Shown in pieces: positions 50,404-55,057 of a DNA stretch of 64,000 nucleotides. Each line of letters begins with the position of its first letter. Position 1 is the first letter of the stretch. The notes under the pieces were generated by a model, which was given only the letters and a program-made list of their open reading frames with translations, ran no database searches and was not told the origin of the DNA. A program made the position numbers and the translations under genes. Source of the stretch: Rosettibacter firmus (GTDB lineage: Bacteria > Bacteroidota > Ignavibacteria > Ignavibacteriales > Melioribacteraceae); assembly GCF_036860695.1 (NCBI RefSeq), contig NZ_JAYKGJ010000002.1, positions 61,001 through 125,000 on the forward strand, given 5' to 3'.

Positions 50404-51162
50404 TTATCTAATTAACTCTTTGATTTTTTGAAAACCTGTTTTACTTACTGGAAGTTTAGTGCTATCATCTAAAATAATTTTGTATGATTCTTTTTCGTAT
50501 AATTCTATTTGTTTGATACAAGAAATGTTTGCAATGTAAGAACGATGTATTCGAATAAAATTTTGTGGATTCAAATATTCTTCAAAGTATTTCATTGTTT
50601 TTTCTTTTAAATAATTTCCTTTTGAAGTGTAAATCATAACATAGTCGTCCTGTGCTTCAATAAATTTAATCTCAGAAACAGGGATGATAATAATTTTTTG
50701 ATTTTGTTTTATAACAACTCTTTCTAAGAATTCTACTTTTTGTTCTAAGGTTCTGGATAGTGCTTCCAATTTTTTATTTGATTCATTCTTGTTGTTTAAT
50801 AAATTCATAGCTTTTTGTATTGAGTCATCAAACCTTTCTTCTGAAAATGGTTTTAATAAATAATCAATTGCATTTACTTCAAAAGCTTTAATTGCATAAT
50901 TGTCGAATGCTGTAGTAAAAATTATAATTGGGGGATCTTCTAATAGTTCTAACATTTCAAAACCAGATATTTTGGGCATCTGTATGTCAAGAAAAATTAA
51001 ATCTGGTTTCAATTCATTAATTTGTTTTAAAGCTTCGAATCCATTAGAACATTCTGCAACAATTTGAATTGTGTCATATTTCGCAAGATAAGTTTTAATT
51101 ATATCTCTGGCTAACTTTTCATCATCCACAATGATTACTTTTATTTTCTTGTTCATAATCAT
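50404..51162 (-). CDS. LytTR-family response regulator
   Basis: The 252-residue protein has a receiver domain (residues about 7-120; phospho-acceptor Asp59 in LIFLDIQMP, acidic pair DDE near residue 13) and a LytTR DNA-binding domain (about 155-252; EAQDDYVMIYTSKGNYL, FIRIHRSYIANI). Members bind pairs of 9-bp direct repeats. Its ATG overlaps the stop of the sensor-kinase gene by 4 bp, and a second ATG two codons in is possible. A pair of 9-bp repeats with 12-bp spacing stands upstream of this operon, suggesting autoregulation. Confidence 0.93.
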   Translation of the reverse strand: MIMNKKIKVIIVDDEKLARDIIKTYLAKYDTIQIVAECSNGFEALKQINELKPDLIFLDIQMPKISGFEMLELLEDPPIIIFTTAFDNYAIKAFEVNAIDYLLKPFSEERFDDSIQKAMNLLNNKNESNKKLEALSRTLEQKVEFLERVVIKQNQKIIIIPVSEIKFIEAQDDYVMIYTSKGNYLKEKTMKYFEEYLNPQNFIRIHRSYIANISCIKQIELYEKESYKIILDDSTKLPVSKTGFQKIKELIR

Positions 51163-52205
51163 ATAGGTATATAAATATTAACTCTAAAAATGTTATTTGA
51201 TTTTTCGACACTTAAAAGATTATCTTGATTATAAATTAATTTTAATCTGTTTTGAATGTTTTTGATTCCTATTCCTTCCCCCCTTCTTGGTACAGCTTCT
51301 GGATCATAATTATTTTCAACTATTATCTTAAAATATTCATCTGTTTTCAAGCATTTTAATTTAATAATGATTTTTTCTAAACTTTCGTATACACCATGTT
51401 TGATAGCATTTTCGAAGAGTGGTTGTAATATCATACTTGGAATCATGACATTTTTACACTCAGGATCAATTTCTTCGATAAAATCAAATTTGTCTTCGAA
51501 TCTAATTTTTTCTATGTCCAGGTACAATTTAGAATAATTAATTTCATCTTCCAATTTATTTTTTTGATGTTCATTTTTTGAAAGTGTATTTCTTAAAAAT
51601 GATGAAAGCTTTACAGTCATTTCCTGTGCTTTTTGTGGATTGTTAATTATTAATGCATTAATCGAGTTTAAGCTATTAAAAATAAAGTGCGGATTAATTT
51701 GATACTTAAGAGATTTTAATTCTGCTTCTTTAATTAGTGCTTTAAGCTCCGCTTCTCTTATTAATTTTTCCTGAAAGTTATTATAATAAATTATAACATA
51801 ATCAATTGCAGTTATTATCGAATAGTACATTATACCAATTATTAAACGCCAGACCAGAGATTTATTAAGAAATACAATATAAATTTTATCTTCGATTAGA
51901 ATGTTTTTAGTTAAATAAAAACCTGCAATTATCCAGAATCCAGTTGATATAAAAGCAGCAGCAATATGATTAATAAATATTTTAGAAGTCGAGTAAATAT
52001 CCAGTGTATTATAATTTACTGGATACCAGATGCTTATTCCAAGAAGCAGGTATAATCCATTAAAAATAATGCTATCTATTAGTGCTGAATTGATATTTAT
52101 TGATAAGAACCAATTAAGAATTATGGTGTGCAATAAAAATATTGAGAACCATGTTATTAGATAAATTGTGAATAATTTTTTGTTTTTAACAAATGGATTA
52201 ATCAT
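51159..52205 (-). CDS. LytS/YehU-type sensor histidine kinase
   Basis: A 348-residue kinase with four to five N-terminal membrane helices (residues about 12-140), without a large periplasmic loop. The His_kinase domain begins LKYQINPHFIFNSLNSINAL, with the phospho-accepting His in NPHFIFN. The ATPase part carries MILQPLFENAIKHGV and GEGIGIKNIQNRL. Stimulus is probably sensed in the membrane, perhaps through the LiaF-like proteins encoded upstream. It overlaps both neighbours by 4 bp. Confidence 0.93.
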   Translation of the reverse strand: MINPFVKNKKLFTIYLITWFSIFLLHTIILNWFLSININSALIDSIIFNGLYLLLGISIWYPVNYNTLDIYSTSKIFINHIAAAFISTGFWIIAGFYLTKNILIEDKIYIVFLNKSLVWRLIIGIMYYSIITAIDYVIIYYNNFQEKLIREAELKALIKEAELKSLKYQINPHFIFNSLNSINALIINNPQKAQEMTVKLSSFLRNTLSKNEHQKNKLEDEINYSKLYLDIEKIRFEDKFDFIEEIDPECKNVMIPSMILQPLFENAIKHGVYESLEKIIIKLKCLKTDEYFKIIVENNYDPEAVPRRGEGIGIKNIQNRLKLIYNQDNLLSVEKSNNIFRVNIYIPI

Positions 52206-52933
52206 AAAATACTTTTTATTTCTCCACCACCAAACAATATAATACCATTAATGATTAATAATCCTTCTGATGAAGGTAATGAATTATTTATAAAGTATTG
52301 TTTTGAATCCATCCCTCCAAAGATTGTAGTAACATTAGTAATTACTTTCCAGTTTTTTGGTACTAATATTGTAAAACCACCAACAAGACAAGTTATTTCC
52401 AGAATTGCTTCTCCAGGATACAAATTTGATTCGGTTAAATCTATTTCAGTTGCTCCAGCTATTATTGTGATTTTCCCGCCTTTAAAATTTTGAGATGTTA
52501 TTTTTCTTTTATTGTGAGCTAATAAACATGTTTCATCTAAGAAATCATCTGTAATATTAAAAATGTTCGAATAACTTTCTGAGTAAATTCTTCGTTCTTC
52601 TTTTTTTTGTTTTTCTTCATTTCTTTTTAATATGAAATAGAGACCAATAATTATTATAAATAGTGGGAATAAATCCCTGAACGAGAAATTGAAAAAAGGC
52701 TTAAATATATGGTTGATTAAACCATAAGCTCCAATTACAAGAAGGATTATACCAAGAGTATTGTTTTTTGCCCTTATAAGTAAAATTATTCCAATTATTA
52801 TTAATATTGTATGCCATGAAAAGATTATATGACGAAAACCAAAATAAAAGAAACCTAAATTATCTATAATCAATAATATTCCAATTACTATAAAAATTAT
52901 TCCAAGCCAGTATCGTAAATTTGATTGATGCAT
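52202..52933 (-). CDS. LiaF-like membrane protein, copy 1
   Basis: A 243-residue protein with four hydrophobic segments (residues about 9-27, 36-53, 57-75, 86-103), resembling the DUF5668/LiaF transmembrane half. A soluble beta-strand-rich domain (residues about 140-243) ends ILFGGGEIKSIL, as in LiaF-type cell-wall-stress proteins. In Firmicutes LiaF inhibits a sensor kinase. Here it sits directly before a LytS kinase, sharing 4 bp with it. A copy with the same end motif lies 7 bp upstream. Confidence 0.82.
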   Translation of the reverse strand: MHQSNLRYWLGIIFIVIGILLIIDNLGFFYFGFRHIIFSWHTILIIIGIILLIRAKNNTLGIILLVIGAYGLINHIFKPFFNFSFRDLFPLFIIIIGLYFILKRNEEKQKKEERRIYSESYSNIFNITDDFLDETCLLAHNKRKITSQNFKGGKITIIAGATEIDLTESNLYPGEAILEITCLVGGFTILVPKNWKVITNVTTIFGGMDSKQYFINNSLPSSEGLLIINGIILFGGGEIKSIL

Positions 52934-52940
52934 ATTTTAC

Positions 52941-53660
52941 CTATAATGTATTTTTAATTTCACCACCGCCGAATAACACAAAACCTTTGATTAAAAGTTT
53001 TTTGTTCTCTTCGTATTTAATACTTGGATTTTTTATTCTATTATCACTAAAGCCACCAAAAATTGGAAGAATATCAATTTCAACATACCAGTCAGATGGA
53101 ACTATTATAGTTGAACCTCCAAAGATGGCTGTAATCTCTAACACATTTTCTCCTTCAGCAAGTTTACAGTCTAAAAAATTTATTTCAGATCCGCCAAATA
53201 TTGATATGATGTTACCTCCTCGAAAATTGTCAGTATGTAAAATCTTTGTGCTTCCACCAAAGATAGAAATTTCTTCAATTGTTTCTTTTATATTATATTT
53301 TTTTTCGCCAGCTAATCTTTCTTCTGTATTTGAAGAAGTATGATTTTTATATGTATGAAATTTCCAGTAATATTTTTCATGATCTTTTTTTCTAAATATT
53401 ATCATTATTCCAATAATTACAAAAATTAATGGCCAGAGTTCAGGGAGTAAACTGAAAAGTCCAATTGCAATGAAGATAATCCCTGCAATATTATTTTTTG
53501 AAAGAATGATTAATAAAATTCCAAAAAGTATTAATAAATATTCCCAGGTTAATAGTTCTTCTGGAATTAGTTCTATTCCATAATTATTTAGAATGAATAT
53601 CAAACCTATTAATACAAGAATTAATCCAATAACAATCCGTGTTCTAATGTAATAAGCCAT
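52941..53660 (-). CDS. LiaF-like membrane protein, copy 2
   Basis: About 239 residues with the same layout as its neighbour: membrane segments in the first 105 residues, then a beta-rich C-terminal domain with repeated IFGGS units (ISIFGGSTKI, SIFGGSEINF, AIFGGSTIIV) and the end VLFGGGEIKNTL. The ATG at 53660 has GGAGA 5 nt upstream and is preferred over an in-frame TTG at 53684. It is the first gene of the LiaF-LiaF-LytS-LytTR operon. The two copies are clearly paralogous but not near-identical. Confidence 0.82.
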   Translation of the reverse strand: MAYYIRTRIVIGLILVLIGLIFILNNYGIELIPEELLTWEYLLILFGILLIILSKNNIAGIIFIAIGLFSLLPELWPLIFVIIGIMIIFRKKDHEKYYWKFHTYKNHTSSNTEERLAGEKKYNIKETIEEISIFGGSTKILHTDNFRGGNIISIFGGSEINFLDCKLAEGENVLEITAIFGGSTIIVPSDWYVEIDILPIFGGFSDNRIKNPSIKYEENKKLLIKGFVLFGGGEIKNTL

Positions 53661-53719
53661 ATTATCTCCAGGATTTATATACAAAATTTATGTTTATAGA
53701 TTTATATAAGTAATAAAAA

Positions 53720-53749
53720 ATCGGTAAACCACTGCTATTTATCGGTGAA
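53720..53749. promoter_or_regulatory. Candidate LytTR binding site (two 9-bp direct repeats, 12-bp spacing)
   Basis: ATCGGTAAA (53720-53728) and ATCGGTGAA (53741-53749) are direct repeats with 8 of 9 bases identical and a spacer of exactly 12 bp. LytTR proteins bind 9-bp direct repeats with 12-13-bp spacers. The site lies 60 bp upstream of the first ATG of the operon that encodes a LytTR regulator. The individual repeat sequence fits the published consensus only partly. Confidence 0.6.
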
Positions 53750-53770
53750 TGTCGAAATTTATAACATAAA

Positions 53771-55057
53771 TTATTCTAATAATTTTATTTGCTCATCTGG
53801 TGGAAGTATCTGAACATCTTTTAATTGTCTTTCAATTTTTCTTGTTGATTTTGTAGCTTCTTCAATTTTATTTGATGCTTCTTGTAATTTCTTTTGAGTT
53901 GCTTCTAAGACATCTCCAAATTTGCCAAATTCTGTTTTAACCGAGCTTAATATTTTCCATACTTCACTTGAGCGTTTCTCAATAGCAAGAGTTCTAAAAC
54001 CCATTTGCAAACTATTCAATAAAGCTGAAAGAGTTGTAGGACCAGCAATTGTAACGCGATATTCTCTTTGAAGTGATTCAGCTAATCCCGGTCTTCTTAA
54101 AACCTCTGCATATAGTCCTTCCACAGGCAAAAACATGATTGCAAAATCGGTGGTGTTTGGTGGGTCTAAATATTTTTCGGCGATTTTTTTTGCTTCGTTT
54201 TTAATTCTTGATTCAATTGCTTTAACTGCACTATTTATTGCTTCAATGTCAGAATTATCCTGTGCGTCTAAGAGTCTTTGATAATCTTCGATTGGGAATT
54301 TAGCATCTATTGGTAACCACACAATTTCATTTTTTGAAGAATCTCTTCCCGGCAGTTTTATTGCAACTTCAACTTTATCATTACTTCCTTTTTTTGTTGT
54401 TACATTACGTTCATATTGTTCACGCGTAAGTATTTGATCGATTAAATTTTCAAGTTGAATTTCTCCCCATGTACCACGAGTTTTTACATTAGTTAAAACA
54501 TTTTTTAAATCGCCAACTCCACGAGCAAGCTCCTGCATATCACCCAGACCTTTATATACTTGTTCTAATCTTTCGCTTACTAATTTGAAAGATTCTCCCA
54601 ATCTTCTTTCTAAAGTAGCATGTAATTTTTCATCAACAGTTTGACGCATTTCTTCTAATTTCTTTGAATTATTTTCTTGAATTTCTTTTAAATGTGTTTC
54701 AACTCTTAACTGAAGGTTATCAAATTTTTGTTCGTTAGATTGTGTGAGTTTTGAAAGTTGTTCAGCAAAAATATCGAGTTGACTTTTTTGCATTTTGGCA
54801 ATTTCATAAAGTCTATTTGCCAGTTGTTCGCCAAAAATATTAATCGTATTACTCAATTCTTCTCTTTGAGATTTTAAAGATTTAGAAATTTCATCTCTAT
54901 TTCTGTAAAGTTCATCCCGAAAAGCTCTTTCAATTCTTTCTAATTCTAATTTTGTTTCGATTTGATTGAATGAATTAATTTTTCTATTAACTAAGAAAAC
55001 AAATAATAATATTATTAATGTTAATGCTAAGATTACTATAACTGCAACATTAATCAT
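53771..55057 (-). CDS. rmuC: DNA recombination protein RmuC
   Basis: A 428-residue protein with an N-terminal membrane helix (INVAVIVILALTLIILLFVFL), a long coiled coil (about residues 30-190) and the C-terminal RmuC domain. The latter contains GTWGEIQLENLIDQIL and AKFPIEDYQRL. RmuC limits inversions at short repeats and is thought to act on DNA ends. The ATG at 55057 is preferred to an in-frame start 90 bp upstream because AAGGTGA lies 4-5 nt before it. It is divergent from the penicillin acylase gene. Confidence 0.92.
   Translation of the reverse strand: MINVAVIVILALTLIILLFVFLVNRKINSFNQIETKLELERIERAFRDELYRNRDEISKSLKSQREELSNTINIFGEQLANRLYEIAKMQKSQLDIFAEQLSKLTQSNEQKFDNLQLRVETHLKEIQENNSKKLEEMRQTVDEKLHATLERRLGESFKLVSERLEQVYKGLGDMQELARGVGDLKNVLTNVKTRGTWGEIQLENLIDQILTREQYERNVTTKKGSNDKVEVAIKLPGRDSSKNEIVWLPIDAKFPIEDYQRLLDAQDNSDIEAINSAVKAIESRIKNEAKKIAEKYLDPPNTTDFAIMFLPVEGLYAEVLRRPGLAESLQREYRVTIAGPTTLSALLNSLQMGFRTLAIEKRSSEVWKILSSVKTEFGKFGDVLEATQKKLQEASNKIEEATKSTRKIERQLKDVQILPPDEQIKLLE

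Follow-up and report, generated by a model that had tools for sequence, protein, structure and literature searches.

Upstream of an operon that encodes two LiaF-type membrane proteins, a histidine kinase and a LytTR response regulator in Rosettibacter firmus lie two short direct repeats, and the question which they raise is whether the regulator controls the operon that encodes it and, if so, in which direction. The window (i.e., the whole stretch of DNA analysed, 64,000 nucleotides) contains the operon on its minus strand, with the following features around it:

50404–51162, minus strand: LytTR response regulator, 252 amino acids (REC, PF00072, and LytTR, PF04397), with a FIRIHRS motif at residues 202–208 and a glycine at residue 243 (G243)
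51159–52205, minus strand: LytS-type histidine kinase, 348 amino acids (PF06580, His_kinase)
52202–52933, minus strand: LiaF2, the second LiaF-type protein, 243 amino acids (LiaF-TM and LiaF-like_C)
52941–53660, minus strand: LiaF1, a membrane protein of 239 amino acids (LiaF-TM and LiaF-like_C; PF22570, PF09922)
53666–53669, minus strand: GGAG, from its sequence the likely ribosome-binding site of LiaF1
53771–55057, minus strand: RmuC-family gene, upstream on the same strand as the operon and ending 21 bp before box 1

The regulator has the two domains of a LytTR response regulator, both scoring over the curated cut-off (PF00072, 90.9 bits; PF04397, 96.3 bits), and its FIRIHRS motif matches FhRhHRS, the conserved motif given in PMC4227749. 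It is one of four LytTR proteins in the window's genome.

As an earlier note on this DNA had stated, the two 9-bp repeats, ATCGGTAAA (53720–53728) and ATCGGTGAA (53741–53749), are identical at eight of nine bases and have 12 bp in between (21 bp from start to start). They are separated from the ATG of LiaF1 (A at 53660) by 59 bases. The motif runs in the direction opposite to that given in the note, however: it lies on the minus strand as TTYACCGAT, pointing toward the operon, so that the repeats read TTCACCGAT-N12-TTTACCGAT and box 1 starts 89 nt upstream of the LiaF1 ATG. The frame of the half-site also had to be corrected, as ACCGATNNN, three bases further on, gives a better fit to the conserved columns and to the LytTR sites published in PMC6193735. 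The sequence elements by which PMC6193735 defines a LytTR operator are present, i.e., two direct half-sites with an ACC core, 11–13 bp apart and upstream of the −35 region. The parts of the site are as follows (positions with a plus sign are counted from box 1, and fractions of 49 refer to the family regions described below):

53741–53749, minus strand: box 1, TTCACCGAT, the promoter-distal half-site; C5 and C6 in 49/49, G7 in 46/49
53738–53746, minus strand: box 1 in the canonical LytTR frame, ACCGATAAA
53729–53740, minus strand: 12-bp spacer between the boxes; relatives have C at +16 (41/49), which the window keeps, and C at +19 (35/49), which it does not
53720–53728, minus strand: box 2, TTTACCGAT, the promoter-proximal half-site; C26 in 48/49, C27 in 49/49, G28 in 47/49, A29 in 49/49
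53717–53725, minus strand: box 2 in the canonical LytTR frame, ACCGATTTT
53711–53714, minus strand: predicted −33 region, with a conserved T at +37 (53713) in 48/49; consensus from PMC8748976
53683–53690, minus strand: predicted −10/−7 element, TAAATTTT, matching TAnnTTTG at five of six bases and spanning +60 to +67

Taken by itself, the repeat pair is weak evidence and only modestly surprising. When the 110-bp spacer upstream of the operon was dinucleotide-shuffled 20,000 times, a pair with at least 8/9 identity arose at a spacing of 21 in 3.2% and at a spacing of 20–22 in 8.8%. The pair had been described as the only one of its kind in the spacer; this holds for the 21-bp spacing but not for repeats generally, as two further pairs are present, one AT-rich with 9/9 identity (spacing 27) and one with 8/9 (spacing 34). 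An AT-rich 10-bp direct repeat, GATTTATATA (53672–53708, spacing 27), is located between the boxes and the ATG and flanks the predicted −10. In its exact form, the pattern that the note had proposed was found once in the window (in none of 100 shuffles) and once in the whole 3.24-Mb genome; with up to three mismatches it has 14 matching places genome-wide, the same number as the reversed-pattern control (14).

Sequences from relatives are more telling. A clear orthologue of the regulator (E 8e-82 or better) was found in 53 of the 79 family genomes, and the order LiaF-(LiaF)-LytS-LytTR is maintained wherever the fetched pieces reach, with a single LiaF in L092, L097 and L189. From 58 fetched loci, 48 were kept and, with the window, make up the 49 regions compared; those dropped were five paralogue loci (L100, L101, L104–L106), a locus with a short upstream region (L071) and four in which the fetched piece carries no LiaF (L054, L066, L078, L102). 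The earlier note had named conservation upstream of orthologous operons as its test, and the pair passes it, being present at exactly 21 bp in 48 of the 49 operons, the window included: TTYRCCGAT-N12-TTYRCCGAT scores at least 15/18 upstream of LiaF in these 48 and at least 16 in 45 (18/18 in 20 regions, 17 in 14, 16 in 11, 15 in 3 and 13 in 1). The half-site consensus was drawn from the same family sequences that were later scored, with other spacings as the control: at spacings from 10 to 33 other than 21, a score of 16 is attained by at most 3 of the 49 operons. (Of the 49 sites, A1 is based on 45 and A3 on 36.) Across the 49 regions the CC cores show little or no variation, in contrast to the flanks. 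The upstream neighbours vary among the relatives (RmuC, opposite-strand genes and others); thus, the boxes are not hitchhiking with one conserved neighbour. An equally good pair at spacing 21 does arise in shuffled spacers at the frequency given above, but that the repeats are a chance product of an AT-rich spacer is hardly credible when one spacing has been kept both in these 48 operons and in 55 of 74 distant loci (among the matches listed; see below).

A sigma-70-type scan found zero promoters in the window's spacer, and the TAnnTTTG form was considered instead, the −33/−7 promoter of Bacteroidales having the form TTTG / TANNTTTGY (PMC8748976). Counted from box 1, the 49 family regions have a TAnnTTTG-like element in common between +60 and +67, with no indels, its A61 being conserved in 49/49 and its T65 in 48/49. 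A −10 score of at least 5/6 is reached at +60 in 40 of the 49 operons, the window among them with only 5/6, and at any other offset from 36 to 112 in four at most. The boxes would thereby lie just upstream of the −33 region, with their centre near −57 for a transcription start near +73. Activators typically keep a fixed phase relative to the core promoter; thus, the constant box-to-promoter phase points to activation, and the fixed spacing suggests activation rather than repression. The operon's own regulator could also bind the boxes and repress, e.g. by blocking polymerase at −33 (negative autoregulation): regulators are able to repress from positions close to −33, and about 3 bp separate the end of box 2, framed as ACCGATNNN, from the conserved T of that region. 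This is unlikely, given the strict phase to the −10, a promoter that in distant relatives has moved by one full 21-bp unit and not by arbitrary distances, and the precedent of repeats just upstream of −35 that activate (PMC6193735, PMC4227749).

Outside the family, scanning named genomes yielded at least 80 loci, mostly from Bacteroidota, with Pedobacter, Mucilaginibacter, Chitinophaga, Pontibacter, Labilibaculum and other genera among the matches listed; of these matches, 80/80 have LytS and 78/80 have LiaF at more than 60 bits. Six of them were set aside, as L207 and L208 duplicate family genomes, L261 and L264 have no LiaF above 60 bits, and L212 and L234 are short; 74 usable loci remain. 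Here too the conservation test was passed: among the matches listed, 55 of the 74 have the box pair at exactly 21 bp with a score of at least 14/18, compared with 2–11 loci at other spacings from 15 to 27, and the other 19 score below 14/18 in the scanned stretch, where some LiaF starts may be wrong and some loci may be without a site.

The position of the promoter divides these 55 loci (all counts in this paragraph are among the matches listed). Fourteen have a −10 of at least 5/6 at +60 and 27 have it at +81; the remaining 14 have it at neither position, several being off by one. At other offsets the mean is 0.69 and the maximum 5, at +82. Rows without the +60 element have T's at +58/+59, which is 21 bp past the family's +37/+38. 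A third degenerate box, (A/G)CC at +46, is present in 18/27 of the +81 class, 0/14 of the +60 class and 1/14 of the rest, over a background of 0.94 per offset on average and 5 at most. Thus, with the −10 at +81, the T's at +58/+59 and the (A/G)CC at +46, the core promoter has shifted by exactly one repeat unit. The 21-bp-shifted promoter occurs in the Chitinophagia/Sphingobacteriia/Cytophagia group, in loci among L220–L286. In a tree of 57 LytTR proteins (the 41 of the 55 phylum rows with a −10 at +60 or +81, and 16 family rows), all 30 rows of the +81 class fall within one group of 31 (support 100/98), the sole +60 row in that group being L255; L245, L248 and L259 were relabelled +81 for the tree, the scored pair in these being boxes 2–3.

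Several side observations concern the same loci. L277 and L284 are Acidobacteria-type MAGs with the same LiaF-LytS-LytTR operon, and L277 has a site-like pair (PWM 24.1) 485 nt upstream of the LiaF ORF. In Pedobacter/Chitinophaga-type operons (L231, L239, L249 and many others) the gap between LiaF and LytS is about 150 to more than 500 nt, in places with room for a small gene. A second site-like pair (PWM 20.3) is found in a Mucilaginibacter locus (L252:1855), distant from the operon promoter.

The next question is which regulator would bind the boxes. A model of the box pair plus the −10, R2, was trained on 36 operon sites, and its cut-off of E 3e-4 was chosen by eye at the transition from full-length to partial matches, which has no wide gap (the neighbouring values are 2.7e-4 and 5.0e-4). 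At E ≤3e-4, R2 matches 83 places in 63 of the 79 family genomes, 62 of them at the operon, and because of the training set these operon matches are partly by construction. The operon is present in all 63 genomes, either intact or as fragments that are contig-cut or broken; G040, in which the operon boxes score 13/18 and give no R2 match, is counted via two other sites. In the 16 family genomes without an R2 match (four of which are less than 90% complete), neither an orthologue of the regulator (the best E is 2.2e-52 or weaker) nor a convincing site is present. A second site was not found in the genome of the window: R1 gives one site, and R2 gives the window's own site (53684–53751, E 1.4e-11), followed by a next match at E 0.23.

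The genus g18, represented by two genomes, has ACCTA(T/C) in both operon boxes (loci L092 and L097, each with a single LiaF gene). Among 131 aligned regulators, residue 243 is G in 126, K in 2 (those of g18), R in 2 and A in 1; in the regulators of rows with T in one box only, residue 243 is still G. This co-change of boxes and G243K is a suggestive lead from a single clade. The other candidate sites of g18 have one G and one T box (L198, L199) or G in both (L200); thus, they are out of step with the operon boxes, an argument against a clean switch in specificity. Only the G243-to-K change was taken from the list of residue–box mutual information, which is not corrected for ancestry; residue 187 stands at the top of that list for box positions 8 and 9.

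Control of the operon from outside, by another LytTR protein or by a regulator of another family, would be compatible with the four LytTR proteins in the genome and with the g18 sites that do not track the change in operon boxes and LytTR. It is nevertheless very unlikely, as the genomes with matching sites all have the operon and those without lack its regulator, the g18 operon boxes and operon LytTR differ together, and the window's genome has no second site, hence none at its other LytTR genes. Together with the conservation of the pair in the family and at the distant loci (among the matches listed), this speaks strongly for the autoregulation that the earlier note had proposed. In the reading preferred here, which is very probable on sequence evidence, the operon's own LytTR regulator would bind the repeats as a head-to-tail dimer by the promoter and activate LiaF-LiaF-LytS-LytTR. 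The chances are about even that this extends to a Bacteroidota-wide Lia-like envelope-stress regulon with one LytTR operator, in which the promoter moves in whole-repeat steps (+60 versus +81) and operon boxes and regulator can change together as specificity shifts; the behaviour of L198–L200 lowers the confidence placed in it. According to this wider proposal, Ignavibacteria and Bacteroidales would have two boxes and a −10 at +60, and Chitinophagia, Sphingobacteriia and Cytophagia would have the promoter 21 bp further on and often a third half-site.

The idea of a regulon fared differently in the window's genome, where there is no second site, and in 16 relatives, which have 21 non-operon sites, mostly before envelope or efflux genes. 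For the window's own species a regulon was considered and dropped, as the three-mismatch pattern did no better than its control (14 versus 14) and R1 and R2 each gave a single site; HlyD and TolC queries had no match in this genome at E 1e-60. There, the circuit looks private. Among the relatives, a looser pattern (one mismatch) has matches in at least 74 of the 79 family genomes, and the candidate places examined came from among the matches listed for this pattern and from R1 and R2. Of the 21 non-operon places at R2 E ≤3e-4, nine precede genes for an HlyD adaptor, a MacB/FtsX permease and what by inspection is an ABC ATPase, five precede TolC-HlyD operons in which the first gene encodes a TetR or receiver-domain protein, and three precede CarbopepD-domain proteins, presumably TonB-receptor-like. 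Single sites, in one genome each, precede YidC (L356, G020), an MFS transporter (L357, G049), PspC-LiaF (L197, G039) and an ankyrin protein (L176, G054). Genes were assigned by Pfam on examples, the remaining HlyD and TolC by orthology and other operon genes by ORF layout. The box pair was seen before HlyD-ABC operons in L167, L169, L171, L173, L178, L180, L193–L195 and L359, and before TolC-HlyD operons in L168, L172, L174, L177 and L200; a weak site (R2 E 0.015) precedes a TolC-HlyD-AcrB type operon in L185 (G062).

Models that do not include the −10 gave 22 candidate non-operon places, and in 17 of these TAnnTTTG is present at +60 with a score of at least 5/6; the exceptions are L173, L194, L196, L197 and L201, and L173, L194 and L197 (PspC) have only 3–4 of 6. 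Of 27 HlyD orthologues, 12 have the site (PWM ≥17, L359 included) and 14 do not (−8.3 or less), the remaining locus, L301, being in neither count. Among TolC loci, of which 26 of 30 were scanned (among them L320 and L331, with less than 800 nt upstream), the site is present in 5/26 (PWM ≥23) and absent in 21/26 (≤8.3). The site is all-or-nothing among the HlyD orthologues and confined to a minority of TolC loci; thus, the regulon is patchy. The efflux and envelope genes behind the box pair in some relatives are predicted to belong to it.

LytTR regulatory systems (LRS) combine a LytTR regulator with a cognate membrane inhibitor and are not known to include a kinase or receiver domain; the operon, with its REC domain and His_kinase, is not a member of that group. 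In the LRS HdrRM/BrsRM of Streptococcus mutans, which PMC6193735 separates from two-component systems, a LytTR regulator is encoded with a membrane protein, and each operator consists of two 9-bp repeats of the form ACC..T, with 12 bp between them in most cases, close to the system's own promoter on its upstream side and mostly 10 bp upstream of −35; those of HdrRM were shown to give positive autoregulation (PMC6193735). The present operon resembles these in encoding its regulator with a membrane protein and in having ACC repeats 12 bp apart just upstream of its promoter, but differs from the LRS as described there in its REC-LytTR regulator, LytS kinase, LiaF-type proteins, ACCGAT half-site and TAnnTTTG promoter, and in the distance of about 3 bp from box 2 to −33, compared with mostly 10 bp to −35 (PMC6193735). 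The layouts are thus similar, not identical, and the anatomy here fits the positive-feedback arrangement of repeats upstream of the system's own promoter.

The AgrA system serves peptide quorum sensing and is not known to include LiaF-type proteins, whereas here such proteins are encoded in the operon. At agr P2/P3 of Staphylococcus aureus, AgrA has direct repeats upstream of the promoters, centred near −60 (PMC4227749); the likeness lies in the two-component LytTR regulator and in repeats upstream of the promoter, here near −57. For Lia/PSP-type systems with LiaI-LiaF-TM and toastrack domains, PMC11237479 names an Ignavibacteriae example (AFH48155.1) and describes LytTR with toastrack in Firmicutes; as in these, LiaF-type proteins stand beside a two-component system here, but LiaR has a receiver and a winged-HTH domain (PMC11237479) and the present regulator has a LytTR domain instead. 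Compared with LiaFSR, therefore, the LiaF-type protein and the two-component system are present and the HTH regulator is replaced by LytTR; compared with PSP-type systems, neither PspA nor PspC is among the four operon proteins. In B. subtilis, LiaF inhibits its kinase in the absence of stress. By analogy with LiaFSR and with the membrane inhibitors of the LRS (PMC6193735), LiaF may act as a brake here.

The proposed mechanism is as follows. Disturbance of the envelope, the presumed signal, would free the LytS kinase from the LiaF-type membrane proteins, and the freed LytS would phosphorylate the LytTR regulator. This would then dock on ACCGATNNN-N12-ACCGATNNN, just upstream of the TAnnTTTG promoter, and recruit RNA polymerase. 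The levels of sensor and regulator would rise as a result, giving positive feedback, and so would that of LiaF, the predicted brake.

To our knowledge, few response-regulator sites are known in Bacteroidota, and no description of this operator or regulon was found in the open-licence literature. What appears to be new is the way in which the known parts of the circuit are combined, together with the operator found across the phylum, the step of 21 bp and the predicted regulon of efflux genes. An uncharacterised envelope-stress circuit thereby gains a precise candidate operator and a searchable regulon across Bacteroidota, and in genus g18 there is a natural experiment on how a LytTR domain reads one base. 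It is predicted that the spacing of this activator shifts in 21-bp steps, and that efflux and envelope genes enter or leave the regulon via the gain or loss of one 30-bp box.
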